NCBI GenBank assembly: GCA_903880675.1
Contig: CAIRQL010000166.1
Span: 1 to 48,339 of the forward strand
Reading direction: 5' to 3'
DNA from: an uncultured Holophagaceae bacterium
GTDB taxonomy: Bacteria > Acidobacteriota > Holophagae > Holophagales > Holophagaceae
Length of the DNA: 48,339 nt
Below, piece by piece: positions 1,388-30,265 of the stretch; within the stretch, counting starts at the first letter, position 1; every line of letters starts with the position of its first letter. The position numbers and the translations under genes were made by a program. Below the pieces are notes generated by a model. It was not told the DNA's origin. It did not search any database and saw nothing but the letters and a program-made list of their open reading frames with translations.

Positions 1388-3754
1388 GTGGACCTTTGCT
1401 CCCTCACCGAGTCAGACATTTGTGACCAGTTCATCACCCCGGCCATTCAGGCGGCGGGGTGGGAGCCGACGACTCAGATTCGTAGGGAGGTGACCTACAC
1501 GGCAGGGCGTATCTGGGTCCAAGGACGGATGGCAAGCCGAAGTAAGAAGCGCAAGCGCGCTGACTATGTCCTGTATTTCCGGGCCGGAATTCCCTTGGCG
1601 GTCATTGAAGCCAAGGATGCCAACCACACGGTTGGGGCAGGGATGCAGCAGGCCCTGGCCTATGCCGAGGACTTGGATGCCCCATTCGCGGTCAGCAGCA
1701 ACGGGACTGGTTTTCTCATCCATGATCGGACGGGTGCAGGTGACCCGGTTGAGCGGGAATTGCATCTAGACGCCCTACCCTCCCCGGCCGACCTCTGGGA
1801 ACGCTACTGCACCTGGAAGGGGCTGGATGCTGCCGGGGCGAAGCTGGCTACCACGACATCCTTCCTCGACCCCGAGGGCAAGGAGCTTCGATACTTCCAA
1901 CGGGTGGCCGTGCAGCGAGCCATTGAAGCCATCGCCCAGGGCCAGCGTCGGCTGCTCCTGGTCATGGCTACGGGCACTGGGAAGACCCTCACGGCCTTCC
2001 ACCTCATCTGGCGTCTTTGGAAGAGCGGCCAAGCCAAGCGGATCCTCTTCTTGGTGGATCGGGACGCCATCCTTGGCCAGACCTACCGGAATGATTTCGC
2101 GCCCTTCGGCAAGGCCATGACACGAATCGCCAACCGTCAGGTGGACACCTCCTACGAAATCTACTTGGCCCTCTACCAGTCCGTGACTGGCACCGAGGAA
2201 GCTCAGAACATCTACCGCCAGTTCAGCCCCGGGTTCTTCGATCTGGTAGTTGTGGACGAGTGCCACCGCGGTAGCGCCCGCGAGGACAGCGCCTGGCGGG
2301 AGATCCTGGACTATTTCGATGGTGCCGTTCACCTGGGGCTGACGGCGACCCCCAAGGAAACCAAGGACGTCTCCACTCAGACCTACTTTGGGGATCCCCT
2401 TTATACCTATTCTCTGCGCCAGGGCATCGAGGATGGCTTCCTGGCCCCCTACAAGGTGGTCCGAATCGGCCTGGACCGGGACCTCATGGGGTGGCGGCCG
2501 GCCATCGGCCAGCGAGATGACGAAGGTCAACTCATCGAGGACCGGGAATTCAACCAGGCGGACATGGACCGGGACCTGATCCTGACCCAGCGTGCCGTAA
2601 CCGTGGCCCGACGGGTGCTGGAATACCTGAAGGACGTGGACCCCTACGGCAAGACCATCGTGTTCTGTGAGGACATCGCCCATGCCGAACGCATGCGGAG
2701 TGCCTTCGTAAACCTGCTGCCCGAGTTCCTGCCCTCGGAACGGGGGCACGAAGCCCGGTTCGTGGTCCGAATGACCGGGGACAGCCCGGAAGGAACGGAC
2801 AAGCTGGACGATTTCATGCACGGGGAGAAGCGGTATCCCGTAATCGCCACCACCTCGAAGCTGCTCACCACGGGCGTGGACACCAAGCCCTGCAAGCTGA
2901 TCGTGCTTGACCAGTTCATTCAGTCCTCTATCGAGTTCAAGCAGATCGTGGGTCGTGGCAGCCGGATCCTAGAGGATGCGGGGAAGCTGTGGTTCACCAT
3001 CCTCGATTTCCGGGGCGCCACGCGTAAGTTCGCCGATCCCGACTTCGATGGGCTGCCTGAGGTCATCTACGAACCAAAGGAAGACGAACCGGTCGCGCCT
3101 CCGGACGACATCGAAGGAGGCGGACCGAATCCTGAATACCCGAACGGCCCTGAGGGACCCGAAGGCCCAGGGGAACCAGTCGATCCCCGTGTGGTCTACC
3201 GGGTCAGCAATGTCACCGTGAAGGTGATCGCGGAGCGGGTGCAGTATCTGGGGCCCGACGGCCGGCTAATCACCGAATCCTTGCGAGACTACACCAGGGC
3301 CAGCGTGCGGAAACGTTTCGCGAGCCTGGATGCCTTCCTGCGCCACTGGACTGAGGCCGATCGCAAGGAAGCCATCCTGCAGGAGCTGCGGGAACAGGGC
3401 GTGCTCCTGGAGGACCTCCGTGACCAGCTCGGTCGGGACCTGGATCCGTTTGATCTTATCTGCCATGTGGCATTCGACCGACCTCCCCTCACCCGGAAGG
3501 AACGAGCCGACCAGGTCCGCAAGCGGGATGTCTTCACGAAATATGGCCCCCGGGCCCAGGCCGTTCTGAACGCCCTGCTCGACAAGTACGCCGATTCAGG
3601 GATCGAGTCCGTGGAGGATGGCCAGATCCTGCGGCTGAAACCCCTGAGCGATCTGGGTACCCCAATGGAGTTGGTGAAGGCATTTGGTGGCAAGACCGAA
3701 TTCGACAACGCAATAAAAGAACTCGAAATAGCCATTTATAACTCAACAGGTTGA
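1388..3754 (+). CDS. hsdR: Type I restriction enzyme R subunit (EcoEI-like), resident locus
   Basis: This 788-residue protein is full length for EcoEI-type HsdR. The N-terminal PD-(D/E)XK nuclease is visible as D59 followed by VIEAK (E74, K76). The SF2 helicase motor follows: ATGTGKT (about 194-200), DECH (290-293) and LTATPKE (about 319-324). A proline/glycine-rich linker near 575-600 leads to the C-terminal HsdM-binding domain. The enzyme translocates DNA using ATP and cuts at a distance when the HsdM/HsdS target is unmethylated. An in-frame TAG upstream leaves GTG 1388 as the only usable start; no strong Shine-Dalgarno is seen. The cognate hsdM and hsdS are now about 9 kb downstream because a transposon has entered the gene between them. 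Confidence 0.95.
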   Translation: MDLCSLTESDICDQFITPAIQAAGWEPTTQIRREVTYTAGRIWVQGRMASRSKKRKRADYVLYFRAGIPLAVIEAKDANHTVGAGMQQALAYAEDLDAPFAVSSNGTGFLIHDRTGAGDPVERELHLDALPSPADLWERYCTWKGLDAAGAKLATTTSFLDPEGKELRYFQRVAVQRAIEAIAQGQRRLLLVMATGTGKTLTAFHLIWRLWKSGQAKRILFLVDRDAILGQTYRNDFAPFGKAMTRIANRQVDTSYEIYLALYQSVTGTEEAQNIYRQFSPGFFDLVVVDECHRGSAREDSAWREILDYFDGAVHLGLTATPKETKDVSTQTYFGDPLYTYSLRQGIEDGFLAPYKVVRIGLDRDLMGWRPAIGQRDDEGQLIEDREFNQADMDRDLILTQRAVTVARRVLEYLKDVDPYGKTIVFCEDIAHAERMRSAFVNLLPEFLPSERGHEARFVVRMTGDSPEGTDKLDDFMHGEKRYPVIATTSKLLTTGVDTKPCKLIVLDQFIQSSIEFKQIVGRGSRILEDAGKLWFTILDFRGATRKFADPDFDGLPEVIYEPKEDEPVAPPDDIEGGGPNPEYPNGPEGPEGPGEPVDPRVVYRVSNVTVKVIAERVQYLGPDGRLITESLRDYTRASVRKRFASLDAFLRHWTEADRKEAILQELREQGVLLEDLRDQLGRDLDPFDLICHVAFDRPPLTRKERADQVRKRDVFTKYGPRAQAVLNALLDKYADSGIESVEDGQILRLKPLSDLGTPMELVKAFGGKTEFDNAIKELEIAIYNSTG

Positions 3755-3783: not shown

Positions 3784-4551
3784 ATGGAAAGTAATATGGA
3801 AAAAAACATATTAAAATTACACAACGAAGCAAAAATTTTTGTTGAAAAGGGTGGCGAGAAAGAAGTCATTACCCTTATAGATGAAATATCGAATTTCATT
3901 AAATTTTCTGACCTTCAACCGGATTCAATTTACCTTAATGCTCCAATAGATACAGATTTGTCGAATTATGGGCCACCGGGGAATCCACCATTACTAATTT
4001 GGGGATTATTAAGGGAAATCGAAAATTGGATGCACGCCGCTCAAATATTACCATTATACAAAATCAATCAACTACTGAAATCATTCATTCATTCCCTTTC
4101 GAATGGTTATTATCAAACGGCTATGATGAATGCTAGGGCCATAATTGAAACCACAGCTCTTGCAAGATATGAATGGACTGAAAGCGAGAAAAAATCGAAA
4201 GTTTTATTAGAATACGCACCAGACAAGATTAGGTCAGACCTTCAAGATATTGAAAAGCTTCAACTGATTGGTAAATCATGCTTGGACATGCTTACGCACT
4301 ATAGAATTTTACTGCAAAAAACTCGCACAGATTGGTCCGCATTACTACATACCGATCCCAATCATGAGAACAAAGAAGAAATGGACAAAAGGTTAACTCA
4401 AACTAATGTTTTTACGGCTATAGATAAACTTAGTTTTCCCTCAACCCGATATGGAAATACTCCGAGAATGCAATATGAAGTAATGTCTGATTTTGTTCAC
4501 CCAAATCGCGGATCAAGTATGTTGTTTTACACCAAATCAGTAGTTAAAAAC
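3784..4551 (+). pseudogene. AT-rich gene of unknown function, 5' part (interrupted by transposon)
   Basis: This is the first 256 codons of an unrecognised gene, far richer in A+T than its neighbours and therefore probably acquired separately from the hsd genes. The likely translation start is ATG 3796, which has GGAAAG placed correctly before it; ATG 3784 is the alternative. The protein looks mostly helical and soluble, with a central segment NARAIIETTALARYEW. An ISL3-type transposon follows codon 256. In place, the frame reads 14 codons into the left inverted repeat and stops at 4593. Joining 4551 to 12675 restores a 313-residue protein with no frameshift. Lying between hsdR and hsdM, it was an accessory gene of the RM locus; I cannot assign a function. 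Confidence 0.85.
4544..4551. repeat. Target-site duplication, left copy (TTAAAAAC)
   Basis: TTAAAAAC abuts the outer end of the left inverted repeat, and the same 8-mer abuts the outer end of the right one at 12667-12674. Eight-base duplications are normal for ISL3-family insertion. The exact match suggests a fairly recent single transposition event. Confidence 0.95.
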
Positions 4552-4620
4552 GGCTATGTGCAATCCAGGGTTGAACCGGGTGGCCCGGGCTAGGTGAACT
4601 CGCCTGCCTCGGCCGCCGCC
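4552..4620 (+). repeat. Left terminal inverted repeat, 69 bp
   Basis: This matches the reverse complement of 12598-12666 over 69 bases with a single difference at 4586 (C here, T in the other copy). Outside this span the two ends diverge at once. It is long for the ISL3 family, whose repeats are usually a few tens of bases at most. Confidence 0.95.
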
Positions 4621-4687
4621 CTTTGTGCATTTCAGGGTTGACACCCCCCACCTTAGGCATATCTTAAAATGTGCAATCTAGGGTTGA
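4557..4687 (+). repeat. Three direct subterminal repeats at the left transposon end
   Basis: An 18-base motif occurs three times in the same orientation: TGTGCAATCCAGGGTTGA at 4557-4574 (inside the terminal repeat), TGTGCATTTCAGGGTTGA at 4624-4641 and TGTGCAATCTAGGGTTGA at 4670-4687. The right end has only the terminal copy. The middle copy contains most of the candidate -35 box and the last one lies between the -10 and the hsdM ribosome site. Inference: these are transposase-binding sites that could also repress the hsd operon. Confidence 0.8.
4638..4665 (+). promoter_or_regulatory. Candidate promoter of the transposon hsdMSR-tnp operon
   Basis: TTGACA at 4638-4643 is a consensus -35. TATCTT at 4660-4665 follows after a 16-base spacer as a weaker -10. 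A purine-rich GAGGGGATGGA precedes the hsdM ATG at 4697. The -35 overlaps the middle subterminal repeat. Confidence 0.5.
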
Positions 4688-4696
4688 GGGGATGGA

Positions 4697-6715
4697 ATGG
4701 CTAACGGACAGGTCAAAGACACGATGCTGGCGGACTTCATCTGGAAGAACGCCGAGGACCTGTGGGGCGACTTCCGACACACGGAGTTCGGCAAGGTCAT
4801 TCTCCCCTTCACCCTGCTTCGGCGGCTGGAATGCGTCCTGGAGACCAGCCGTGTGAAGGTGCGGGCCGCCCACGAGGAACACAAGGACTCCGGGCTGGCA
4901 GTGGACACCATCCTTCGGAAGTTGACGGGCCTGCCCTTCTACAACGTGAGCGAGTACACCCTCGACAACCTTGGCTCCTCCAAGACCCGCCAGAACCTTG
5001 AAGACTACGTCTCGAAGTTCTCCGGAAACGCCCGAGCGATCTTCGAGCAGTTTGAGTTCGCCAGCACGATCACCAAGCTGGACAAGGCCGGGATTCTCTT
5101 CCGGATCTGCAAGAACTTCGCCGGGATCGACCTCGACCCGAAAGTGGTGCCTGATCGGGTAATGAGCAACATCTACGAGCACCTCATCCGCCGCTTCGGG
5201 GCCGCCGTCAACGAAGGGGCTGAGGACTTCATGACCCCGAGGGACGTAGTCCACTTGGCCACCACCCTCTTGCTTGACCCTGACGACAAGCTCTTTGAGT
5301 CGAACCCTGGCCTGATTCGGACCCTCTACGATCCAACCAGTGGGACCGGAGGGTTCCTCTCGGACGCGATGGATCATGTCGATACCTACTCGTCCAAGTA
5401 TTCAGTGCCTCCGGTGCTGATTCCCTTCGGCCAAGAGTTGGAGCCTGAGACCCACGCGGTCTGCCTTTCCAGCATGTTGCTGAGGACGCTGGCCAGCGAC
5501 CCAGGCCGGGACCTCTCCAAGAACATCAAGCTGGGGAACACGCTCTCGAACGACCAGTTCCGGGACGACCGGTTCCACTACGGTCTGGCCAATCCCCCCT
5601 TCGGGAAGAAGTGGGAGAAGGAACAAGAGTTTGTTGAGCGAGAACGCCGAGAGAAGGGGTTCCTGGGCCGCTTCGGGCCGGGAACTCCACGCATCAACGA
5701 TGGCTCGATGCTCTTCCTTCTGCACCTTGCCAGCAAGATGGAGCACCCCGAGAAGGGCGGCGGGCGGGTCGCTATCGTCCTGTCCGGCTCGCCGCTATTC
5801 AATGGTGGGGCTGGGTCAGGGGAATCAGAGATCCGGCGCTGGCTGCTGGAACAGGACCTCGTTGAGGCCATCGTCGCCTTGCCCTCGGGAATCTTCTTCC
5901 GGACGGGGATCGGGACCTACATCTGGATCCTCAGCAACAAGAAGGCCCAGGAACGCAAGGGGAAGGTCCAGTTGCTTGATGCGACGACCTTCTGGACCCC
6001 CATCAAGAACGAGGGCAACAAGCGCCGTAAGATCAGCGACGACCAGATCCGGGAGATCGCGGACCAGTACCTTGCCTTCGAGTCCTCGCGCATCAGCAAG
6101 GTCATCGAGTCCACCCAGTTCGGCTACCGGAGGATCAAGGTGCTTCGCCCCCTCCGGATGGCTCTCCACCTCAATCCGGAGGCCCTGGGCCGCCTGAAGG
6201 AGCACAAGCAGTGGCAGAAGCTCTCTGAGGCCGAGGCCAAGGCCTGGGAGAAGGCTTTGACTCCCCATCTCGGAGAAGTCCACGACTACGGCTGGGCAAA
6301 GACCTTCGCGGAGGAGACCAGCGCGAAGAGCAAGGTCATCGAAAAGGTCGGCAAGGCCTTCATCAAGGCCCTAATCAACACCTTTGGCGAGCGTGACCCC
6401 CAGGGGGAGATCGTCCTGGATGACGACGGCGTCCAGGTTCCGGATCCCGAGCTTGCCGACTTCGAGAACGTGCCTCTTGGTCAGGACATCAAGGACTACC
6501 TGGCTGTGGAGGTGATGCCTCATGTTCCTGATGCCTACATCGACGAGTCTTTCTGTGACGACGGGGACAAGAAGGTCGGTCGGGTTGGCTATGAGATCAA
6601 CTTCAACCGCTACTTCTACAAGTTCCAGCCGCCGCCGAAGCTCGAAGAGATCGACGCCAAGCTGAAGCAGGTGGAGGAAGAGATCCACGCGCTGCTGAAC
6701 GCGGTGACGAAATGA
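4697..6715 (+). CDS. hsdM: Type I DNA methyltransferase M subunit (transposon copy)
   Basis: This 672-residue HsdM has an N-terminal helical HsdM_N domain, the AdoMet-binding motif DPTSGTGGFL near residue 212, and the adenine-methyltransferase motif NPPFGKKW near residue 298. A long C-terminal extension ends in a coiled helix (KLEEIDAKLKQVEEEI) probably used to contact HsdS. It methylates adenine in the bipartite site chosen by HsdS. It is longer than the resident HsdM (509 aa) and has a different motif I (DPTSGTGG against DPACGTGG), so the two belong to different type I families. Its stop overlaps the hsdS start as ATGA. Confidence 0.95.
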   Translation: MANGQVKDTMLADFIWKNAEDLWGDFRHTEFGKVILPFTLLRRLECVLETSRVKVRAAHEEHKDSGLAVDTILRKLTGLPFYNVSEYTLDNLGSSKTRQNLEDYVSKFSGNARAIFEQFEFASTITKLDKAGILFRICKNFAGIDLDPKVVPDRVMSNIYEHLIRRFGAAVNEGAEDFMTPRDVVHLATTLLLDPDDKLFESNPGLIRTLYDPTSGTGGFLSDAMDHVDTYSSKYSVPPVLIPFGQELEPETHAVCLSSMLLRTLASDPGRDLSKNIKLGNTLSNDQFRDDRFHYGLANPPFGKKWEKEQEFVERERREKGFLGRFGPGTPRINDGSMLFLLHLASKMEHPEKGGGRVAIVLSGSPLFNGGAGSGESEIRRWLLEQDLVEAIVALPSGIFFRTGIGTYIWILSNKKAQERKGKVQLLDATTFWTPIKNEGNKRRKISDDQIREIADQYLAFESSRISKVIESTQFGYRRIKVLRPLRMALHLNPEALGRLKEHKQWQKLSEAEAKAWEKALTPHLGEVHDYGWAKTFAEETSAKSKVIEKVGKAFIKALINTFGERDPQGEIVLDDDGVQVPDPELADFENVPLGQDIKDYLAVEVMPHVPDAYIDESFCDDGDKKVGRVGYEINFNRYFYKFQPPPKLEEIDAKLKQVEEEIHALLNAVTK

Positions 6716-8061
6716 GCCGTTACAAGCCCTATGGTGCCTACAGGGACTCCGGCTCGGAGTGGCTGGGCTCCATCCCTAAGCATTGGGAGGTGAAGCGACT
6801 CCGTCATTTGGCCTCGTTTGCGAACAGCAATGTGGACAAGAAAAGTCATGATGGAGAGCAGGCGGTTCGCCTCTGCAATTACACCGATGTCTATTACAAC
6901 GAGTTCATCCATGCGGACTTGGACTTCATGCCTGCTACCGCTACGGAAGGGCAGGCCGTAGCGTTCGGGCTTCAGGCTGGTGATGTCATCATCACGAAGG
7001 ATTCTGAGGATCCGAGGGACATTGGTATCCCATCGTTCGTACCCGAAAACATCCCGGGGGTAGTTTGCGGCTACCACCTCACATTGATTCGGGCGATCCA
7101 CCCCCAGACTGCTCAATTCATCTTCCGCGCCATCCAGAGCCACCCAAGCAAAGGCTACTTCTATGTTGGGGCCCCCGGGATCACGAGGTTTGGCTTGGGC
7201 CAGGACGTTATCGGGGATCTTCCCGTTGCTCTCCCACCTGTGTCCGAACGTGCCCGGATCGCCGATTGGATCCAATCCGAGACGGCCCGCATTGACGCAC
7301 TGATCGGGAAGAAGACGCTCTTCATTGATCTCCTAAAGCAGAAGCGCCAGTCCGCCATCACTCAGGCCGTCACAAAGGGGCACGACCCCAATGTGAAGTT
7401 GAAGGACTCGGGGGTGGCGTGGATTGGAGAAGTCCCTGCACACTGGAGTGTCTCAAAACTTGGCTATATCGCTACCGAACAAGGTGGGAAAACGCCTAGC
7501 ACCTCGGACTCACGGTTTTGGGATGGGGGCATCCCATGGGTGACCCCAAAGGATATGAAGGTTGATTTGATCAGCCGTTCGTTGGATACGATCACGGAAA
7601 CCGCCGTGAGTGAGTGTGGGATGCCACTAATTCAGCCGGGTTCGGTTCTCGTGGTGGTGCGTGGGATGATCCTGGCCCACTCGTTTCCTGTTGCAGAAAC
7701 GGCGATACCAGTAACTATCAACCAGGACATGAAGGCGCTCACCCCATGTCCTGAAGTGCTGGCTCCGTATCTGCGACTTCTTCTTCAAAGCGCCAAGCAG
7801 TATGTGGTTAGCGTGCTTGTTGCCGAAGCGGCCCACGGCACTTGTGTCCTGCGGACTGACATTTGGAAACAGTTGCCAATGGTCATTCCGCCTCTTGGTG
7901 AGCAAAAGGAAATCCTTGATTACATCTCGACTACTACGAAAAGGCTTGATGCCGTTGTCGCCGCAGTCGTGTCAAGCATCACCCTCCTCAAAGAGCGCCG
8001 CACAGCCCTGATCACCGCCGCCGTTACCGGCCAAATCGACCTGCGGGAGGACATCGCATGA
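6712..8061 (+). CDS. hsdS: Type I specificity subunit S (transposon copy)
   Basis: This 449-residue protein has two target-recognition domains. The first begins at SEWLGSIPKHWEVKRL (about residues 16-31) and the second at VAWIGEVPAHWSVSKL (about 236-251). Each ends in a conserved helical spacer introduced by PPVSERARIADWI or PPLGEQKEILDYI. It fixes the split DNA target for both methylation and restriction. It overlaps hsdM and hsdR by 4 nt each. The recognition sequence cannot be read from sequence alone. It shares no obvious recognition domain with the resident HsdS, so the two systems should protect different sites. Confidence 0.94.
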   Translation: MSRYKPYGAYRDSGSEWLGSIPKHWEVKRLRHLASFANSNVDKKSHDGEQAVRLCNYTDVYYNEFIHADLDFMPATATEGQAVAFGLQAGDVIITKDSEDPRDIGIPSFVPENIPGVVCGYHLTLIRAIHPQTAQFIFRAIQSHPSKGYFYVGAPGITRFGLGQDVIGDLPVALPPVSERARIADWIQSETARIDALIGKKTLFIDLLKQKRQSAITQAVTKGHDPNVKLKDSGVAWIGEVPAHWSVSKLGYIATEQGGKTPSTSDSRFWDGGIPWVTPKDMKVDLISRSLDTITETAVSECGMPLIQPGSVLVVVRGMILAHSFPVAETAIPVTINQDMKALTPCPEVLAPYLRLLLQSAKQYVVSVLVAEAAHGTCVLRTDIWKQLPMVIPPLGEQKEILDYISTTTKRLDAVVAAVVSSITLLKERRTALITAAVTGQIDLREDIA

Positions 8062-11000
8062 GCGAGCCCCACCACGAGAAAGAGTTCCAGAAATACATCG
8101 TCGCCCAGTTGGAGGCCATGGGCTGGCTCGTTGGGACCACCAACGGCTATGACACGGAGAACGCCCTCTTCACGGAAGATGTGCTTGCCTGGGTCAAGGC
8201 CACCCAGCCGAAGTCCTGGGAGAAGCTGGAGGCTACCCATAAGGGCAAGGCCCTGGATGCCCTAACCGACCGCCTAGCCAAGGCCCTGGAGAAGGATGGG
8301 ACGGTCCAGGTGCTCCGTGGCGGCTTCCAGATCGCTGGTGCCGGTCACTTCGATATGAGCGAGGCTGCGCCCGAGGACATGAGGAATCAGGGCGTCTTGG
8401 ACCGTTACAAGGCCAACAGGCTGCGGGTGGTGCCGGAGTTGGAGTACCATCCTGCCCACGGTTACGCGATTGATCTGGTCTTCTTCATCAATGGCATCCC
8501 TGTGGGAACCACGGAACTCAAGACCGACTTCACTCAGGCGGTCGAAGACGCTATGGAGCAGTACCGGAATGACCGGAAGCCCTACGATCCGGTCACCAAG
8601 CGCAAGGAACCCCTCCTGACCTTCAAGAGGGGTGCGGTGGTCCACTTCGCCATGTCTGATTCGGACATCCGAATGGCGACCAAGCTGGATGGCGAGAACA
8701 CCTACTTCCTGCCCTTCAACAGCGGGAACAATGGCCACGCCGGTAATGCTGCCCGCGAGGACAAGGATTACCCTGTCGCTTACTTCTGGAGGGATGTGCT
8801 GAAGCCTGACGCCTGGCTCCGCATCTTCCACAGCTTCGTCTATGTCGAGAAGAAGGATGTGGTGGACCTTCACGGGAACTGGACCAAAAAGGAAACTCTC
8901 ATCTTCCCGAGGTTCCACCAGTGGTCGGCCGTGAACGCCATGATCGCGGATGCCAAGGCCAACGGCCCTGGCATGGCCTACCTCTGCGAGCACAGCGCCG
9001 GGTCCGGCAAGACCAGCACCATCGCCTGGACCGCCCACGACCTCATCAAGCTGCGCCATGACGACGGGAAGGCCTACTTCGACTCGGTCATCATCGTCAC
9101 TGACCGGACGGTCTTGGACAGCCAGTTGCAGGACGCGGTGAAGCAGATCGACTGCCAGTTCGGCGTTATTGCTGCCATCGACCGGGACAAGTCCTCCAAG
9201 TCCAAGAGCAAGCAGTTGACGGAAGCCATCTCCAGCGGGATCCCGATCATCGTGGTCACGATCCAGACCTTCCCTTACGCGATGGAAGCGATCCTCACGG
9301 CGGGCTCCCTCAAGGACAAGCACTTCGCTGTCATCATTGATGAGGCCCACAACTCCCAGACGGGGACGAACGCCTCCAAGCTCCAGGCGGTCCTGGCGCT
9401 GCAATCCAAGGATGCGATGGCGGCCATGACTGTTGAGGACCTTCTGGAGCACATCCAGAAGTCCCGAGTCCGGCCCAAGAACATCAGCCACTTCGCCTTC
9501 ACGGCCACCCCGAAGCACTCGACCCTGATGCTCTTTGGACGCCCCAAGGACCCTACCCAGCCGTCCTCCAAGGACAACCTTCCAGAGTCCTTCCACAAGT
9601 ACCCGATGCGTCAGGCCATCGAGGAGGGATTCATCCTCGACGTGCTTCAGAACTACGTGCCCTACAAGACCGCCTACAACCTGAGCGAGCAGTTGGGCAA
9701 AGACAAGCGGGTGAACACCCGCCAGGCTCGCCGTGCGCTGGCCCAATGGATGGCGCTGCACCCGACCAACGTCACCCAGAAGGTGCAACTCATCGTCGAG
9801 CACTTCTCGAAGAATGTGGCCCACCTGTTGGACGGGAAGGCCAAGGCCATGGTGGTGACCAGTTCTCGGGCCGCCGCCGTCCGTTACAAGAAGGGGTTTG
9901 ACGCATACATCATGAAGCACCCCGAGCACGCGGGCATTCGTGCCCTGGTCGCCTTCTCAGGGAAGCTGACGGCGAAACAGGTCAATCACCCTGCCGACGA
10001 GCACCTGAAGGGTGATGACTTCAAGGTCGCGGAGGATGAGGAGTTCACCGAACTCAACATGAACCCTGACACCAAGGGTGCGGACCTTCGGGCTGCTTTT
10101 GATCGCCCGGAATATCGGGTCATGCTGGTGGCCGACAAGTTCCAGACCGGTTTCGACCAGCCCAAGCTGGTGGCCATGTATATCGACAAGAAGATCGCCA
10201 ACGAGGTGGAGATCGTCCAGACGCTCTCCCGCCTGAACCGGACTGCGCCGGGGAAGGACGGAACCTTCGTGATCGACTTCGTGAACGACCCCGATTCCGT
10301 CCGCCTGGCCTTCGCCAAGTACGATTCCGGGGCCCAGATCATTGATGTCCAAGACCTGAACGTGGTCTACGAGATCAAGGCCCCCTTGGACAAGGCTGGG
10401 ATCTATGACGAGAAGGATCTGGACGCCTTCCGGGAGGCCCGGTTCAAGGCTGCCAGGGGTCTGACTTCGGGCGCGGCTACCACCCACAAGGAGCTTTACG
10501 CTGCTACCCAGCACCCCACGGAAATCTACAACCAGAAGTTGAAGATGCTGAAGGATGCCGTAAAGACCAGTGAGGCGGCCTACCAGGATGCTCGCGCCAA
10601 GAAGAACAAGGACGCCATGAAGGCTGCCGACCACCAGAGGGCGGACTACGCGGCCCAGATGGTCGCCTTGGTCAACTTCAAGAATGGCCTCGGACGGTTC
10701 TGCCGGACCTACTCCTATGTGGCCCAACTCATTGACTTCGGAGATCCGGAGCTTGAGAACTACGCCGCCTTCGCCAAGCTGCTGAGTAAGCGGCTGGACG
10801 GGATCTCCCCTGACGAGGTGGACCTCAAGGGCTTGCTGTTGACGGGTTTTGGGATCCTCGACCGGAAGAACCAGCCAGTGAAGCCCGACCAGGAGGACCT
10901 GGTTCTCCCTCCGGTGGGGCCTGGTGGTGAGGGCAAAGCCCACGACCCGGACTTCTTGGCTGACATTATCAAGCGCATGAACGCCATCTTTGGCAAGGTG

Positions 11001-11279
11001 GCACCGATCAAGGATCTCGTTGCCCTGACGAACCAGGTGACTTCCATTGCCCGAGAGAACGACACCGTCATGGCTCAGGTCGAGAACAACACGCGGGACC
11101 AGACCATGAAGGGGAATCTCCCTGGGGCAATCGAGCAGGCCGTGGTCCGAGCCCTAACCTCGCACCAGGCCGCAGCGAAACTGCTGCTGAAGTCGGACCA
11201 GCAGTCCATGTCTGCCTTCACGCACCTCATCTACGACATCCTGAAGGTTGGCCGCGAGATCGACCTGGAGGCTTCGTGA
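8058..11279 (+). CDS. hsdR: Type I restriction enzyme R subunit (transposon copy)
   Basis: At 1073 residues this is a long-type HsdR, different from the resident 788-aa protein. The nuclease core reads AIDLVFF then TTELK (D139, E153, K155). Helicase motifs are HSAGSGKTS near 310-317, IIDEAHNSQ near 427 and FTATPK near 482, with a QTLSRLNR motif VI-like stretch near 723. The C-terminal helical region binds HsdM. It provides ATP-driven translocation and cleavage. It begins in an ATGA overlap with hsdS, and its TGA stop lies inside the GTGA that starts the transposase gene, which is unusual coupling between an RM subunit and a transposase. Confidence 0.95.
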   Translation: MSEPHHEKEFQKYIVAQLEAMGWLVGTTNGYDTENALFTEDVLAWVKATQPKSWEKLEATHKGKALDALTDRLAKALEKDGTVQVLRGGFQIAGAGHFDMSEAAPEDMRNQGVLDRYKANRLRVVPELEYHPAHGYAIDLVFFINGIPVGTTELKTDFTQAVEDAMEQYRNDRKPYDPVTKRKEPLLTFKRGAVVHFAMSDSDIRMATKLDGENTYFLPFNSGNNGHAGNAAREDKDYPVAYFWRDVLKPDAWLRIFHSFVYVEKKDVVDLHGNWTKKETLIFPRFHQWSAVNAMIADAKANGPGMAYLCEHSAGSGKTSTIAWTAHDLIKLRHDDGKAYFDSVIIVTDRTVLDSQLQDAVKQIDCQFGVIAAIDRDKSSKSKSKQLTEAISSGIPIIVVTIQTFPYAMEAILTAGSLKDKHFAVIIDEAHNSQTGTNASKLQAVLALQSKDAMAAMTVEDLLEHIQKSRVRPKNISHFAFTATPKHSTLMLFGRPKDPTQPSSKDNLPESFHKYPMRQAIEEGFILDVLQNYVPYKTAYNLSEQLGKDKRVNTRQARRALAQWMALHPTNVTQKVQLIVEHFSKNVAHLLDGKAKAMVVTSSRAAAVRYKKGFDAYIMKHPEHAGIRALVAFSGKLTAKQVNHPADEHLKGDDFKVAEDEEFTELNMNPDTKGADLRAAFDRPEYRVMLVADKFQTGFDQPKLVAMYIDKKIANEVEIVQTLSRLNRTAPGKDGTFVIDFVNDPDSVRLAFAKYDSGAQIIDVQDLNVVYEIKAPLDKAGIYDEKDLDAFREARFKAARGLTSGAATTHKELYAATQHPTEIYNQKLKMLKDAVKTSEAAYQDARAKKNKDAMKAADHQRADYAAQMVALVNFKNGLGRFCRTYSYVAQLIDFGDPELENYAAFAKLLSKRLDGISPDEVDLKGLLLTGFGILDRKNQPVKPDQEDLVLPPVGPGGEGKAHDPDFLADIIKRMNAIFGKVAPIKDLVALTNQVTSIARENDTVMAQVENNTRDQTMKGNLPGAIEQAVVRALTSHQAAAKLLLKSDQQSMSAFTHLIYDILKVGREIDLEAS

Positions 11280-12628
11280 TCGACCTCCTCCGTCTCCCGG
11301 GCATCACGCCCATGGATCTCCGAGACGATGGGAAGATCCTTGTGATCCAAGCCGAGGCACAGGAACCGCAAGTGCCCAACTGTCCTACCTGTGGGACCGC
11401 CCTGTTCCGTCACGGGAAGCGTGTTCATGTCTTTGCTGACACACCGCTCGAAATGCGCCCAGTTCGTATCGAAATCACCCGCCAACGCTTTCGCTGCGGC
11501 ACCTGCGGGAAGATCGTCACTCTGGAGCTTCCCTTCCTGGACGACAAGCGCCGTGCGACCCGCCGACTGGTCGATTCCGTGCGTGAGCGGTGCCTCAGCA
11601 AGACCTTCCACAGCCTGTCTGAAGACACCGGCCTGGCCGTCAACACCATCAAGAACATCGCCCAAGACCTGATCAGCGACATGGATCGGGAGGTTCGCTT
11701 CGAGACCCCGAGCATCATGGGCATCGACGAACTGAACCTGGCGGGTGGGATGCGGTGCATCATCACCAACCTCGCCACCATGAGCGTCTTTGACATGCTG
11801 GCAGAGAGGACCCAGGCCGTTCTAAAGCCGTTCTTTGAGGCCATGAGCGACCGAGAGAAGGTCGAGTGGGTCTGCACCGATATGTGGCGTCCATTTAAAC
11901 GGTCCTTCGCCCCATACCTCCCAAATGCCAAGCTCGTCATCGACAAATTCCATGTTGTCCGGATGGCTTCCGATGCCCTGGAATCGGAGCGGAAGAAGTA
12001 TCAGAAGGACCTGGATAAGGATGCTCGGCTTCAGATCAAGAAGTCAGTGCGGTGGCTTACTCTCAAGCGCACAAGCAGCCTGACCCCAGAGGAGGCTGTG
12101 GCCCTTGCCATCGTGAAGAAGAGCGTGCCCGACCTGGGCGTTGCCCATGACTTGAAAGAGTCTTTCTACGAAATCTATGACCAGGACACGAGGGCGGACG
12201 CGATGCTTGCCTTCAAGGACTGGGAGAAGTCCATCCCGGCGAAAATGCCCATGTTCAAGTCGTTGGCGAAGACGGTTCACAACCACTACGAAGACATCTT
12301 CGCCTATTGGGATGCCCCAACCCGGATAACGAACGCCTACACCGAGGGCGCTAATGGGATCACCAAAGTTGCGAATCGGACTGGTCGTGGCTACAGCTAT
12401 GAAGTGATCCGCGCCAAGGTCCTGTACCACAAGTTGGCAAGGGAGATTGGGTCCGTGCGGCGCTTAATCATCCAGGAGGACCCGAGTCCCAGTGCCGGTT
12501 CGGGTTTCCTGATGGCCAAGTGGCTCCCCTCCGGCCTTCTATCAACCAGTGAGACCATCCAGGTGACCGAGTACGGCCCCTACCTTTCAACCTTGGTGGC
12601 GGCGGCCGAGGCAGGCGAGTTCACCTAG
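11276..12628 (+). CDS. ISL3-family transposase
   Basis: This 450-residue protein has the ISL3 layout: an N-terminal zinc finger (C36-x2-C39, C74-x2-C77), a helix-turn-helix-like segment near 112-135, then a DDE catalytic core. The core shows MGIDEL (D151), CTDMWRPF (D202), DKFHVVRMA and NAYTEGANG (E about 356). The GTG start is supported because the family's usual beginning (LLRLPGI...) aligns directly after it. That start overlaps the hsdR stop as GTGA, so translation probably depends on ribosomes finishing hsdR. The last ten or so codons and the stop lie inside the right terminal repeat. All catalytic residues are present, so the element may still move. Confidence 0.95.
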   Translation: MIDLLRLPGITPMDLRDDGKILVIQAEAQEPQVPNCPTCGTALFRHGKRVHVFADTPLEMRPVRIEITRQRFRCGTCGKIVTLELPFLDDKRRATRRLVDSVRERCLSKTFHSLSEDTGLAVNTIKNIAQDLISDMDREVRFETPSIMGIDELNLAGGMRCIITNLATMSVFDMLAERTQAVLKPFFEAMSDREKVEWVCTDMWRPFKRSFAPYLPNAKLVIDKFHVVRMASDALESERKKYQKDLDKDARLQIKKSVRWLTLKRTSSLTPEEAVALAIVKKSVPDLGVAHDLKESFYEIYDQDTRADAMLAFKDWEKSIPAKMPMFKSLAKTVHNHYEDIFAYWDAPTRITNAYTEGANGITKVANRTGRGYSYEVIRAKVLYHKLAREIGSVRRLIIQEDPSPSAGSGFLMAKWLPSGLLSTSETIQVTEYGPYLSTLVAAAEAGEFT

Positions 12629-12666
12629 CCCAGGCCACCCGGTTCAACCCTGGATTGCACATAGCC
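12598..12666 (-). repeat. Right terminal inverted repeat, 69 bp
   Basis: This is the inverted partner of 4552-4620 with one mismatch. It contains the end of the transposase gene, including its TAG stop at 12626-12628, and ends immediately before the right target duplication. Confidence 0.95.
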
Positions 12667-12674
12667 TTAAAAAC
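12667..12674. repeat. Target-site duplication, right copy (TTAAAAAC)
   Basis: This is the second copy of the 8-bp duplication flanking the ISL3 transposon, identical to 4544-4551. Confidence 0.95.
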
Positions 12675-12848
12675 AGATTCACATCGCATCAAATATCCAA
12701 AGACCCTCAATGTTTAGATAATGAATATGTTGTGATGGATGTGACTGCTATACCAGTGATTGAATCACTTCGAATTGAATTTAATGTGTATAATTCTTGG
12801 GATATATTTTTAAATCATATAAATTTATTATTGAAATCATTAAAATAA
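12675..12848 (+). pseudogene. AT-rich gene of unknown function, 3' part
   Basis: After the transposon and one target copy are removed, AAC at 4549-4551 runs directly into AGA TTC ACA at 12675 with the frame kept. The next 57 codons are open to TAA at 12846-12848. The segment has the same strong A+T bias as the 5' part and ends in leucine/lysine-rich helix-like residues. It has no start of its own and is not expected to be translated. The resident hsdM begins 42 nt later behind GAAGGA. Confidence 0.85.
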
Positions 12849-12890: not shown

Positions 12891-14420
12891 ATGTCACTCA
12901 TTACCACGGTCAAATCCATCCAGGACATCATGCGCAAGGATGTCGGCGTGGACGGCGACGCCCAGCGCATCGGTCAGCTCGTCTGGCTGTTCTTCCTGAA
13001 GATCTGGGATGACCGGGAACAGGAACAGGAGCTGGTGGAGCCCGGCTTCCAGAGCCCCTTGGTCGATGTCCGCTGGCAGGAGGGTGATGAGACCCGCACA
13101 GCGAAGGATCTGCGCTGGCGGTCCTGGGCTGCCGATCCTGAAGGCATCACCGGGGAAGGCCTGCTGGACTTCGCCAACAACACCCTGTTCCCGGCCCTGA
13201 AGTCCCTAGAAGTAGGGCCGAAGGTTGAGGGGGATTCCACGGCTGCTCGGATGGCTGACTTGTTGCGCCGCCGTCGGCAGCTCATCCGCAGCATTTTCGT
13301 GGACGCCTACCAGTACATGAAGAACGGCACACTGCTCCGGCAGGTGATCAACAAGGTCCAAGCCGACATCGACTTCAATGACTCTAAGAACAGGCACCTC
13401 TTTGGGGAGATCTACGAAAGCCTACTGCGCGACCTCCAGAGCGCCGGCAATGCGGGCGAGTACTACACGCCCCGGGCTGTCACGGAATTCGCCGTGAACC
13501 GCATCAACCCCAAGTTGGGCGAAACCATCCTCGACCCGGCGTGCGGCACGGGTGGCTTCCTTTCCTGTTCCATTGAACACCTGCGGAAGCAGGCCAAAAC
13601 CCCCGACCAGGAGCGCCAGATCCAGGCCAGCATCCGTGGGGTCGAGAAGAAGCCCCTGCCCCACCTGCTCTGCACCACCAACATGATCGTGCATGGCATC
13701 GAAATCCCCACCCAGATTCGGCATGACAACACCCTCAGCCGCCCTCTACGGGAGTACGGCCCCAAGGACAGGGTGGACATCATTCTCACCAACCCACCCT
13801 TCGGCGGCATGGAAGAGGACGGCATCGAGCAAAACTTCCCCTCCGGCTACCGAACCCGGGAAACGGCCGACCTCTTCCTCGTGCTCATCATGACCCTGCT
13901 GAAGGATGGCGGCCGGGCGGCGGTGGTACTGCCGGACGGCACCCTCTTTGGTGAAGGCATCAAGACCCGCATCAAGGAAGACCTGCTCACCACCTGCAAC
14001 CTGCACACCATCGTGCGGTTCCCGAAGGGGGTCTTCGCGCCCTACACCAGCATCAACACCAACCTGCTTTTCATCACCAAGGGCGAGCCCACAAAGAAGG
14101 TCTGGTACTACGAACACCCCTATCCCGAGGGCTACAAGTCCTACTCCAAGACCAAGCCCATGCGTTTCGAGGAATTTTTCCCCGAGGTTGCCTGGTGGTA
14201 CAAGCGCGTCGAGAGCGAACAGGCCTGGTGCGTCTCAATTGAGGACATCCAGGCGCGTGCGTATAACCTGGACATCAAGAACCCCAACGCTCCTGAACTA
14301 TCCCATGAGGATCCGGATGTGCTTTTGGAACGATACGCCCAGGCCCGGGCCGAGGCAGACCGCATTCGGGAGGAACTGAAAGCGGCTCTGTCTGGTTGCT
14401 TGTTGCGGGGCGACCAGTGA
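12891..14420 (+). CDS. hsdM: Type I DNA methyltransferase M subunit, resident locus
   Basis: This 509-residue HsdM has an N-terminal helical domain (to about 150), motif I DPACGTGGFL near residue 214 and the catalytic NPPFGG near 300. It matches the EcoEI-type hsdR at 1388 in family and size, so hsdR, the interrupted gene, hsdM and hsdS formed one locus before the transposon arrived. A good ribosome site (GAAGGA) lies 5 nt before ATG 12891. Its stop overlaps the hsdS GTG. Transcription once coming from hsdR now has to cross the 8-kb insertion or begin in the AT-rich stretch before 12891; methylation and restriction may therefore be expressed separately. Confidence 0.95.
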   Translation: MSLITTVKSIQDIMRKDVGVDGDAQRIGQLVWLFFLKIWDDREQEQELVEPGFQSPLVDVRWQEGDETRTAKDLRWRSWAADPEGITGEGLLDFANNTLFPALKSLEVGPKVEGDSTAARMADLLRRRRQLIRSIFVDAYQYMKNGTLLRQVINKVQADIDFNDSKNRHLFGEIYESLLRDLQSAGNAGEYYTPRAVTEFAVNRINPKLGETILDPACGTGGFLSCSIEHLRKQAKTPDQERQIQASIRGVEKKPLPHLLCTTNMIVHGIEIPTQIRHDNTLSRPLREYGPKDRVDIILTNPPFGGMEEDGIEQNFPSGYRTRETADLFLVLIMTLLKDGGRAAVVLPDGTLFGEGIKTRIKEDLLTTCNLHTIVRFPKGVFAPYTSINTNLLFITKGEPTKKVWYYEHPYPEGYKSYSKTKPMRFEEFFPEVAWWYKRVESEQAWCVSIEDIQARAYNLDIKNPNAPELSHEDPDVLLERYAQARAEADRIREELKAALSGCLLRGDQ

Positions 14421-16087
14421 CCCCGCACGACCTGCTGGCGAACTTCGAGATCCTCGCCGAAGCGCCCAATGGCATCTCGCGATTGCGGGAGCTGGTGCTA
14501 GAACTGGCGATGCGGGGGAAGCTGGTAGAGCAGAATCCGGCAGATGAACCCGCAATAGAACTAGCCAAGCGGATTCAACAAAGGCTTCCAATCATTAGGA
14601 AGCGGAGAAATGGGACCCTGGGACACAGCGATTCTGAACTTGCATCCATTCAAGCCGAGAGCATTCCAGAAGGTTGGTATGCCTGCACTCTTGGATCAGT
14701 CACTCGACTCATTAATGGCAGAGCCTATTCGCGACCTGAATTGTTGAGTTCTGGAACACCGATTATTCGCATACAAAACCTGAATGCTGGGAACTCATGG
14801 TTCTATTCAGATCTAAAATTAGAAGATGAAAAATATTGCGTCGATGGCGATCTGCTTTTTGCATGGTCTGCGACATTCGGCCCCTACATTTGGCACGGAC
14901 CAAGGGCAATTTTCCACTATCACATATGGAAAATTGATCTACTGCAAGGTTGCGACAGTCAGTTCATGTACTACCTTCTAGAAGCGATAAGTGAAAGAGT
15001 CCGATCGAAGGCACATGGCGTTGCTATGTTGCACATGACTAAAGAGGGGATGGAGGCTTGGCCCATAACAATCCCCCCTCTGTCAGAACAACGTCGTATC
15101 GTTGCTCGAGTGGATGAGTTGATGGCCCGGCTTGGTCACCTAGAGGTCAAGCGCCAGGGGCGCGAAGCCGCCCGCACCGCCGCCCGCGATTCCGGCCTCG
15201 CCGCTCTCCGCGAAGCCCTCAGTCCCGACGATGTCGAAGCCGCCTGGCTCCGTATTCAGGAACGGTTTGGGGATCTCTTCGCCACACCCGGGGATGTTAA
15301 ACCACTGCGGGCGTTGACATTGGAGCTTGCTGTACGCGGAAAGCTCGTGGAGCAGGATCAGAACGATGAGCCGGCATCGAACCTCTTGATGCGTGCCAAA
15401 GCACGCCAAACAACACACTACGGCTCAGGCCGGCAGGGACGGTCTTCGGCCGAGACGGAGACCGCGATGCCATTCGACATCCCCGACGGGTGGTCCTGGG
15501 CTCGCATGGATGAGTTCTGCGACATCAAAAGCGGGGTCGCCAAGGGCAAGAATCTCCAGGGCCTCAAATGCCAGGATTACCCTTACCTTCGCGTCGCAAA
15601 TGTCCAGGCTGGCTATACGGATTTGGCAGTGATGAAAATGTTGCCCCTGCCGGTGAATGAATTGGGAGCCTATCGCCTCGTTAAAGGTGATGTCCTACTC
15701 ACGGAAGGTGGGGATTGGGACAAGCTGGGGCGATCGGCAGTCTGGGGTGGAGAAATCGACCCCTGCATCCATCAGAACCATGTCTTCAGGGCCCGAATCC
15801 TTGACCAAGGAATTCACCCACGGTGGATTAGCAGCTTCACCAACTCTCCCGATGGGCGAGCCTACTTTCAGTCATGTGCGAAACAGACAACAAATCTCGC
15901 CTCCATCAATATGACGCAGTTGAAAATCTGCCTGGTACCAATTCCACCCAAGGCAGAACAGGATCGCATTCTCGCTCGCATGGATGAATTGATGGACCTG
16001 CTGGACAGCCTTTCGGAATCAATGTCAGGCCAATCGAAGTTTGCAGAGACCTTCGCCGCCGCCGCGGTCCATCACCTAGACGTCTGA
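14417..16087 (+). CDS. hsdS: Type I specificity subunit S, resident locus
   Basis: I place the start at GTG 14417, inside GTGA with the hsdM stop, rather than at the upstream TTG 14396, giving 556 residues. The protein has a clear internal repeat: LELAMRGKLVEQNPADEPA near the N-terminus and LELAVRGKLVEQDQNDEPA in the middle, each before a target-recognition domain. The domains begin at GWYACTLGSVTRL and GWSWARMDEFCDI. Each closes with PPLSEQRRIVARVDELM or PPKAEQDRILARMDELM. It directs the resident HsdM/HsdR to a bipartite target. The next gene starts 18 nt after its stop. Confidence 0.93.
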   Translation: MTPHDLLANFEILAEAPNGISRLRELVLELAMRGKLVEQNPADEPAIELAKRIQQRLPIIRKRRNGTLGHSDSELASIQAESIPEGWYACTLGSVTRLINGRAYSRPELLSSGTPIIRIQNLNAGNSWFYSDLKLEDEKYCVDGDLLFAWSATFGPYIWHGPRAIFHYHIWKIDLLQGCDSQFMYYLLEAISERVRSKAHGVAMLHMTKEGMEAWPITIPPLSEQRRIVARVDELMARLGHLEVKRQGREAARTAARDSGLAALREALSPDDVEAAWLRIQERFGDLFATPGDVKPLRALTLELAVRGKLVEQDQNDEPASNLLMRAKARQTTHYGSGRQGRSSAETETAMPFDIPDGWSWARMDEFCDIKSGVAKGKNLQGLKCQDYPYLRVANVQAGYTDLAVMKMLPLPVNELGAYRLVKGDVLLTEGGDWDKLGRSAVWGGEIDPCIHQNHVFRARILDQGIHPRWISSFTNSPDGRAYFQSCAKQTTNLASINMTQLKICLVPIPPKAEQDRILARMDELMDLLDSLSESMSGQSKFAETFAAAAVHHLDV

Positions 16088-21838: not shown

Positions 21839-24800
21839 TTATATACCATTTTTGGCCCGACGATTAGGTCGAACCTCACTACGCACCTTCCTTGGCATAT
21901 TAAGGGCCATCAATATTTCCGAGGCAAGTATTGAGGCGGAATAGGGAATCAGGTTCCACCCCGGGAGTACAATCCGCGGCTCGTTCTCGACGATCACCGC
22001 CACTCTTTGCTCTGGCCAACACCATTCCGCAGTCCCAATGGTTTCTTGACCAAGCACAAGATCTCGACCGACTTCGGGGAGAGGGACACCCAGCTCTTGT
22101 AACTCGAGAAGAATCGGGTGCCCTACGGATGAATATTTCAAGACTGAATCCCAATTCCATTCATCTAAACTTTCCGGCTCATTCCCTTCATATGCCGTGC
22201 CAAATACCTGGCCTAGCGACGTTTCCGACATGGCACCACCTGCCAGATTCTGAATCAGCAATTCCATCGCAGCGAGGCCTGCCAGCCTCCTTAGTGGCTT
22301 GATGCGGTGTTCTGCCCTGTTGTCATGAGTCAGGATGCATTCTGGACATGCGTTGGAACAGGCGTCCGATGGACGGTGCTCATGGGAAAGAATTTTTCTT
22401 GCGAGGTCCAACCAGGCGGAAAGCCGCTTGGATTCTTGCAGTCTCGCCAGCAATCCACTTCCGCCGCTGGTTAAGTCAACAAGATATAGGGTTTCAGGAG
22501 CGTCTTCTGTGATATCCGAAATGGCGAGTGTTCGGGGGTCGAGTTCTAATAAGAAGGCTGCAGCAAGACGGAGTGCGTGGGATGCTGCGCGCATCCCCTC
22601 ATAGCCTATGGGGGCGAGACTACGGATTCTCAGGACATCCATCCTTACGACTTCTCCTAAAACAACGGAGTCAGGTGCAGTCGTAGTGTCCTTGGCACAA
22701 CAAGGTGTCCAAGGACGACCGTCAGCGACTACCCTACGCATCCGGCCACACCCAGAACACAGCCAGAATCCTTTTTCTTCGCCTCCTAGGTTCAGAAACG
22801 CCACATGCACAGAAGGTCGGAAGGTGATCATTCCATCGGGCCATTGGCGATCATCCAACGTGAGAATTCGGGAAGATCGACCTGGCGGTAGTTCAGCGTT
22901 TGTTCCCGCTAGTTTGAACCCATCTTCTGAGGAAAAAGCATAAGGAATCACGATCGATCGCAGATCGTGCTCGCTGCTCATACAGGCTGGGCACGCTCCC
23001 AAGTCTCCTGATTGTGAAACATGCTGATGACCACAGATGCGGCACTGAAGTAGGGTGAAAAGCCGGTGGTGGGTGTCTGACTGCCCCCGTCGAATATCAG
23101 CGGTCAATCCTCTTACTGTCCAGCTTCGATTGGCAACGACCACCGTCGCGCCGGGTGTCCATTCCATTACGGCTTGGCGCCTGTCGCGTTCTATGGCGCC
23201 TGCAAACTCGATCGCCTTAGGGGGCCGTAGGCTGACAGAAGAAATGGGGAACCCAAATCGAGGGAGCAAATGATTCTCCGCCAACCACTGGAGAGCATCG
23301 TACTGCCGCAGCGAGTGCACAAGTAGGCGCATGAATTTCGTTTGCTGCTCAGGGCCGCTGCTAATTGACTCCTCTACCCGGAGGACTTGCTTGCGAATCT
23401 GATGCAGCTGGGCCTCGAGATCTGCCTTGCCTTCCTTTAGCCAGCTCGAGAGTACGCTGCGCTCCTTGCCAAACAAGGCTTGTCCTCGCGACCATTGATC
23501 ATCCGTTAGAGTCTCCCACCGCTTAACAGCCTCATCCCCCCAACCGGGCGCGGAAACCTCAAGATTCCAGGGTGATTCTGGATACCGGGCGTTCCAGTCA
23601 TCGATTGACTTCCTTCTGAGCTCCGGATCAATTCCAGCGAAAATCGAAATCTTGTTGAGAAGTTCGCTACCTGAGCCAACTTTGACGAGTTCGCCACCGC
23701 GAACAAGTAGTCCAAGGCGCCACGCAAAGAAATGCTGGCGTAGCTTCTCCTCTCGCTCGAGATCTACCCTGGGCGTGATGCCAGGCCTTTTAAGAAATGC
23801 CTTAAGGTCACGATGAGCCCAGCGATCAAAGCTATCTTCGCCCGCGAAGGTCAAGGCCAGGCAAGACCGAGAGCGCGATCGACCGGCACGTCCAACCCGC
23901 TGGGTATGGTTTGATGCAGCGGGGGGTACCCCCATCAATACGACACTATCTAAATCAGGTAGATCAATGCCCATTTCGAGCGTAGTGGAGCTGCAGAGCA
24001 CATTCATTTTAGCTTGCCTGAAAAGCAGCTCATCTCTTCGAACCTGATCTCCGCTTCGTTGGGCGGTGTGCTCAAAGGCCGTCAGCCCCTCAGGCGGATC
24101 GCGATGCAGCAGAACGTTGTGTGCATGTGGATAGGCGTCAATATCATTGCCCTGGTCTATGGACGGATCTATTGGGAGTAAGTTGCCAGCACATGGCTCG
24201 GACCGCTCCTTCCCACGTGCTTCTCTGTACCTAGGTTCTGCGCAGGCAGCAAGCAGTCCCCAAGGTGAGATCGATCCACACCTATCACAAAGAAAAGCGC
24301 CAGTCCCAAATCGGAGCTGGATCAGCTCTGCGTTCAGGCGCAGAGAATCGACCCCATCCACCGATTCAAAGTTGAGGATCGGCATACTCTGGGAAACTTG
24401 TCTTAACCCTTCCCAAAGCGCAACATACACACGCTTGTTCCAGGTCTCGTCAGTGCGGCCGTTGCAATGCTGACAAAGTAGATCGAGGAAGGCAGTGAAC
24501 TTACGCATTCCAATGCGATCACTTGCAAAGCTAAATACGCCGGGATTGCTAGATTCTTGAAGCACCGCCCGCCGATTCATGAACGCCTGACCCCAGTCCT
24601 CCTCTTGGCCGGTAAAAGGCCTCGGAAGCAAGACGCACCGCTGCTCAAGCATGAGGTTACAGGCCCGCTCAAAAATTTCCTGATGCAGCGTTTTCTGAAT
24701 CCCATGCGCCGATAAGGGCTCAAGGGCACCGACCAGGTTCGGCCACTGGATTTGGACGAGCCCAAGCTTCTTTGCGGTCGGAGTCCTTCCAGATGGCCGA

Positions 24801-30200: not shown

Positions 30201-30265
30201 ACGAGCCGAAACCATGCCCCAAAGTTCCGAGGATTTTCCTGGTGGAATGACTGTAGTGCACGCAT
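27221..30265 (-). CDS. druH: DruH-like protein (Druantia type III partner)
   Basis: This 1014-residue protein has no motif I can assign to an enzyme class. It is rich in tryptophan and proline, with a helical N-terminus, a central beta-rich region (about 400-680) and a helical C-terminus. A partner of about 1000 residues of unknown function directly before a DruE-type helicase is the arrangement of Druantia type III (DruH-DruE), and I name it on that basis rather than on sequence motifs. AAGG lies seven bases before ATG 30265. It starts 25 nt after the helicase-fusion gene and ends 3 nt before druE, so the three genes form one operon. Confidence 0.62.
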   Translation of the reverse strand: MRALQSFHQENPRNFGAWFRLVIADRPLPWSWDAEEAALLLRWYHHFGWQQHLMDSNPTPSGAAAALGTLLAQAYQSCFNGDGDTAVWMRLGQVMGIPDNSFGAHVTNLSQRLGIYQDSTSESDLIHVIPFLKLVGCPQQSLPVLGQQLRSSQPIGKRYRALVTAQWGPQAETLLKGWVKEGQATPPFLSPAEIDLIQRDPEIKRTDLGFLWTVFELTTGSFQLSLVPTKALAPGDWVGSSRQTVSSEIAKTYGIPQELGRDGMVQGPGQTLDIDWPSRPSFWGISRPTPRGVRQAFERTKGIAPALVCLPPQWSLDGDPEPGWRWHKIKGETTLFDPTGTPWQPKEESANWDALDGISLLNHPHIAVLHKFPEDLPGLEVVAGRLGSTLQDGVAWKKNQFALPPLGHLRLSWLTRNGHRRQKEVYFLPTLQLTKSSAERPVVWIRGMEGLVERENANRWYELTIESQGSKWLADVLFRGWGSTPIHLCLEGRLARWGASLYGWRPHHPWPSHGPWHMGPRFPMEVYEANLRFEVALPVEVEGRVWLDGLAPLWEERTIRHQRKLGPLEFHDPLKPLWGVIEPMGRPVRVALGWPNPADQEAEKLKSVSVFRFFPRDTPLSVKALGTWKFHIRSHSTEGPGFSIEDWSIWIRSTKTPEVVFRENLSALNGQRTSDGLLVEIPACNPADGPFHIGLRTINSPSHPISIHVDRNGNPIPRAVEAHCKAVRGKMIGGVAIREDLSDYRDQLLSFAYDLAETANLIELLDYEEIYHWLDYLSDDFVFSQPWTLGIALRHPKMTLKYIARSEWGDEEKVQALGNLGQSGWSWWLVPPADIETMAPELRAIILQSASTLARRRITALHGITNPAARTAAISRLCEEGLFLALEPTVRRLYLEQMGFPVELMEKPWDAKSLSARICQQQDDFLGGLIRQLLQPSPEPPPLLPKPPESGLLGLPPVLERVMRLSGWGRAYRQWAATETGSLISAPHWDKATPEVFRHYGPLFTFFALLNWQD

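Follow-up and report, generated by a model that had tools for sequence, protein, structure and literature searches.

We found that a complete type I restriction–modification (RM) system in an uncultured Holophagaceae bacterium is enclosed in an ISL3 element of 8,115 bp, located at positions 4552–12666 of the window, the 48,339-nucleotide stretch of contig CAIRQL010000166.1 that was analysed here. The best explanation is an autonomous transposon in which hsdM, hsdS, hsdR and the transposase gene (tnp) form one operon and the element's own transposase moves the whole unit, a reading to which we give a probability of about 0.93. According to this model, a promoter at the left end would read hsdM-hsdS-hsdR-tnp as one operon, and the transposase, encoded by the last gene, would bind the terminal repeats and insert the entire 8.1-kb unit at AT-rich sites, leaving 8-bp duplications. 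In a new host, HsdM and HsdS would methylate DNA, and HsdM, HsdS and HsdR together would restrict unmodified DNA. By paying its way as a defence system the element may be hard to lose, and it could have an addiction effect. A large multi-subunit immune system would in this way be movable by one transposase without a plasmid, a phage or a second IS.

The boundaries of the element were examined at both ends. Terminal inverted repeats of 69 bp, with one mismatch between them, lie at 4552–4620 (left, forward strand) and 12598–12666 (right, reverse strand), and an exact AT-rich 8-bp duplication, TTAAAAAC, flanks them at 4544–4551 and 12667–12674. A chance origin of these ends is negligible, because the 69-bp repeats are near-perfect and the exact duplication sits at their outer edges. 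A first-pass annotation of this DNA had reported both features, and both were recovered at these positions; its span of 4544–12674 holds with the duplications included, the element proper being 4552–12666. ISL3 elements produce AT-rich target duplications of 8 bp, as found here, and their terminal inverted repeats start with GG and are typically 15–39 bp long. Those of the window element start with GG (GGCTATGTGCAAT...) and measure 69 bp, versus about 25 bp with 1–6 mismatches in its relatives. The repeat owes its unusual length for the group to a left end that duplicates the right one in inverted orientation, inclusive of the final 31 bp of tnp that form part of the right repeat. Probably the right tip was copied over the left one, and recently so, since one base only differs between the two ends. 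The segment 4552–4620 resembles recent end homogenisation, unlike the relatives. An Rfam search of the window returned no RNA family.

Between these ends we found four co-directional genes on the forward strand, with overlapping ends and open reading frames throughout. These are hsdM (4697–6715), a type I DNA methyltransferase gene with intact DPTSGTGG and NPPF motifs; hsdS (6712–8061), encoding the specificity subunit and overlapping hsdM by 4 bp; hsdR (8058–11279), encoding the restriction and translocation subunit and overlapping hsdS by 4 bp; and the ISL3 DDE transposase gene (11276–12628), which has a GTG start and overlaps the hsdR stop by 4 bp. Pfam and NCBIfam assigned all four (N6_Mtase/HsdM_N, Methylase_S, HSDR_N/SWI2_SNF2/T1R_D3-like, and DDE_Tnp_ISL3 with the NCBIfam ISL3 equivalog), confirming the earlier statement that only hsdM, hsdS, hsdR and an ISL3 transposase lie inside; there is no extra gene between hsdM and hsdR. 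The M, S and R subunits make up a complete type I set with catalytic motifs, including the PD-ExK, Walker A (GSGKT) and DEAH motifs of HsdR, and methylation and restriction activity is predicted from sequence. Only one of the two target-recognition domains of HsdS scored above the Pfam threshold. The transposase matched PF01610 (6.7e-56) and NF033550 (294 bits against a cut-off of 180), and its acidic residues D151, E152, D202, D223 and E357 were invariant among 52 homologues. Composite transposons have two IS copies around their cargo; this element has one transposase gene.

The insertion site was then reconstructed from the flanks. When these were joined without the element and one copy of the duplication, the left part (3784–4551) and the right part (12675–12848) of a forward-strand gene that matches DUF5677 formed a single open frame. 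On either side, outside the element and also on the forward strand, lies the host's own type I operon, with an EcoAI-like hsdR at 1388–3754 and hsdM plus hsdS at 12891–16087. This operon is collinear on both sides with that of a same-genus genome, G150 (82.9% and 85.7% DNA identity), which together with the restored DUF5677 frame argues against mis-assembly. In G150, hsdR adjoins hsdM with neither DUF5677 nor the transposon between them. The DUF5677 gene, with a GC content of 35.5% compared to 57% for the window, was absent from all 46 other genomes of the genus and all 76 other genomes of the family searched. Because these relatives do not have the gene, the exact empty site was not found among them, and G150 gives an uninterrupted R-M operon only. 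The low GC content and the hsdR-hsdM adjacency in G150 suggest that DUF5677 entered the host operon first; the transposon would then have landed in DUF5677, placing an RM-carrying transposon inside a second RM operon. The region 1388–32447 is a defence island that contains, in addition to the host type I RM operon, AbiJ-like and GmrSD/type IV-like genes, a Druantia III DruE-like protein (21839–27217) and a UvrD-like helicase. A 1014-aa protein beside the DruE-like protein (27221–30265) had no match in Pfam or PADLOC.

We wanted to know how far the sequence speaks for current activity. A search of the element's own genome, which is 72% complete, gave no second copy, and no close copy was detected among 396 genomes of the phylum. 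Multi-copy activity in its own genome was rejected, as one copy only is present. With a single copy in a genome of this completeness, we can only infer that the window copy may be active. These same observations, along with the location in a defence island, are what would be expected of a genuine transposon that is now dead or trapped, a fossil that persists solely as a resident RM system. That reading agrees with the structural part of our best explanation and opposes the part concerning activity. Against it are the four open reading frames with their catalytic motifs, as well as the perfect duplication and near-perfect inverted repeats, which suggest a recent insertion; we consider it unlikely but not remote.

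The findings on the window copy were extended by examining its relatives. A transposase scan, with one genome per species, revealed 36 loci at 54–65% identity together with four viral contigs and many plasmids, the window transposase being at most about 65% identical to any relative. The relatives occur in Pseudomonadota, Campylobacterota and Fidelibacterota and on resistance plasmids. In all 43 family loci with upstream sequence that were first examined, hsdR lies directly before tnp (L046 starts at a contig end and so has no upstream sequence), and the same holds for two plasmid copies added later. Below the group there is a sharp fall in transposase identity, to at most 40% across most of the protein. 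Four of these weaker hits were read with their annotation and carried either different cargo, such as the cation efflux genes of ISPpu12, or none. HsdR identity is 55–72% within the group and at most about 49% outside it, and an HsdR scan of viral contigs yielded nothing. When element ends were located by inverted repeat and target duplication, 18 elements from many genera, the window included, showed the same ends and exact 8-bp duplications, each at its own site, with sizes of 7.9–10.9 kb; an Acinetobacter plasmid copy (L074) had no clean ends. Additional support came from ISKpn25, three copies of which share 100% identity and lie at different sites (pKpQIL-6e6, talA of Escherichia coli Nord8, and a third site in E. 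coli EC28) with different perfect duplications (GAAATTAG, AAAGAAAA and CATGTTTT). In a single E. coli genome, as many as six places match the left end of ISKpn25. Collectively, these data indicated that the RM-carrying ISL3 lineage is widespread and long-lived, not a one-off.

To dissect the history of the component genes, we calculated distance correlations (Mantel) among 30 complete elements. The coefficients were 0.970 for HsdM-HsdR, 0.957 for HsdM-transposase and 0.978 for HsdR-transposase, versus 0.41–0.46 for HsdS against any of the three. In maximum-likelihood trees, the 45 RM-bearing transposase rows made up one side of a single branch (SH-aLRT 89), as did the transposon HsdR rows (SH-aLRT 100), and the window transposase fell in the clade carrying hsdMR. 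The results support co-divergence of HsdM, HsdR and the transposase as one history; the correlation alone is also compatible with shared host descent. The trees mix host families, and transfer is indicated because near-identical elements occur in different ones (Undibacterium, Rhodocyclaceae and Nitrosomonas). Given the common history of hsdM, hsdR and tnp, no cryptic boundary separates the hsd genes from the transposase, and only hsdS and the genes in the slot between hsdM and hsdR have histories of their own. The shared history and the independent copies together uphold the first-pass proposal of a self-contained mobile immune unit, moved by one transposase with no second IS.

The same evidence bears on the possibility that an hsdMSR operon was already resident when an ordinary ISL3 IS inserted next to it, the left end being a chance remnant or belonging to a second IS. 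The left inverted repeat does contain an inverted copy of the 3′ end of tnp, which is what a leftover piece of another IS copy would show. However, the duplication lies outside both ends and the target frame is restored; hsdMSR-tnp lies between equivalent ends in many genera, in independent copies with their own duplications, which already refutes an accidental or composite origin; the M, R and transposase genes share one history; and a left end with three repeats is found family-wide. We therefore regard this origin as very improbable. Hardly credible at all is the insertion of a type I RM unit by the 'long, variable target duplication' route reported for RM systems (PMC3031569), with the transposase as a bystander, because the duplication is short (8 bp), constant in relatives and exactly outside inverted repeats of the transposase type.

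We also examined how the operon might be controlled. At the left end the terminal motif occurs three times, as direct repeats on the forward strand: repeat 1, terminal, ATGTGCAATCCAGGGTTGA, at 4556–4574; repeat 2 at 4623–4641, the 3′ end of which supplies a predicted −35 box, TTGACA (4638–4643), at a position conserved in relatives; and repeat 3 at 4669–4687, directly upstream of hsdM. After a spacer of 16, a putative −10 box, TATCTT, lies at 4660–4665 on the same strand; this match is only moderately good, and it differs from one relative to another. Repeat 3 covers the predicted transcription start and is next to or overlaps the Shine-Dalgarno sequence, and in most relatives it supplies the GGAG ribosome site of hsdM. 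Exactly three direct copies were present in 21 of 21 elements, that is, 63 sites observed in left ends versus about 2.5 expected at the interior rate, and repeats 2 and 3 are spaced by 44–46 bp in these elements. The offset of repeat 2 is 74 in the window compared to 52–72 in relatives, matching the longer inverted repeat of the window element. As the transposase must bind the motif at the ends, it likely binds the copies at the promoter too, and the likeliest reading is that it represses hsdMSR-tnp. We tentatively suggest, at somewhat less than even odds, that hsdM and hsdR belong to the core of a long-lived transposon lineage instead of being cargo, and that the transposase doubles as the operon repressor. 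If true, one protein would sense its own level and set both transposition and restriction, and transposition control would be linked to how an immune system establishes itself in a new host. The open-licence papers searched held no description of such three-repeat control by a transposase, and the conserved repeat-promoter layout makes transposase control of restriction simply testable.

Comparison with known systems showed that the window element is a divergent member of the ISKpn25/ISSm4 group. ISKpn25 (ISL3, Klebsiella pneumoniae, 8154 bp) has the same hsdM-hsdS-hsdR-tnp order, three left-end repeats, ends of the same kind (GGCTATTTGCA...) and an 8-bp AT-rich duplication, with identities of about 58% for the transposase, 67% for HsdR, 66% for HsdM and 48% for HsdS. 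It differs in the position of tnp, which begins 4 bp beyond hsdR with no overlap, and in having inverted repeats of about 25 bp with mismatches instead of 69 bp. Isoforms of an IS share more than 95% sequence identity; with a transposase 58% identical, the window element is not an ISKpn25 isoform. The ISSm4-type element of Aeromonas plasmid pMCR5_045096 (L049; transposase 61% identical, 8-bp duplication CTTTATTT) likewise holds hsdM, hsdS, hsdR and tnp in one transposon but, unlike the window element, has hsdM and hsdS separated by a gene for a YhcG/DUF1016 PD-ExK nuclease. ISPpu12 and ISPst2 resemble the window element in having passengers upstream, tnp last and GGGTAT...GGTTGAT ends, and an ISPst2-like element (L075) has an 8-bp duplication as well; in contrast, their transposases are 33–34% identical, they carry efflux, permease or regulator cargo and no RM genes, and the three-repeat promoter layout was not seen in them. 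RM units have been described as moving between flanking IS copies, as composites, or inserting with a long target duplication (PMC3031569); unlike these, the window element has a single transposase within one pair of inverted repeats, no second IS and a short, constant duplication. Identical copies of ISKpn25 have been reported on pKpQIL plasmids and in chromosomal mgrB (PMC8796155), and hsdM has been named as its passenger gene (PMC5142620). The novelty implied by the first-pass annotation thus falls away, an RM-carrying transposon being already on record in ISKpn25, with published hsdM/S/R passengers (PMC8796155, PMC5142620), and in its named relative ISSm4. Within the open-licence literature searched, what is apparently new is the constant hsdR-tnp adjacency, the co-divergence of M, R and transposase with exchange of HsdS, the variable accessory genes between hsdM and hsdR, and the three-repeat left end.

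DNA comparison of near-identical pairs revealed two constant blocks, from the left end through hsdM and from hsdR through tnp to the right end, with hsdS and extra genes as the variable stretch between them; hsdS may be swapped by recombination between these conserved flanks. The lineage is in this respect a natural experiment, in which M, R and the transposase stay constant while RM specificity (hsdS) and accessory defence genes are swapped in and out, and this family-level pattern, with its three-repeat control region, is worth following up. The slot genes between hsdM and hsdR, mostly defence-like, match GmrSD, YhcG/DUF1016, RhuM, Abi_2, SLFN/AlbA and PIN. They differ even between close elements (L009, L012, L014, L018 and L023). 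Slot genes that have no Pfam match (L009:3769-4413, L012:2777-3280, L014:6026-6778, L018:3610-4329 and L023:3928-5037) are candidates for unknown defence genes. In the chromosome of E. coli Nord8 (NZ_CP139794.1, L088), ten places match ISKpn25; a burst in which one strain accumulated copies of this 8-kb RM element would be worth mapping.
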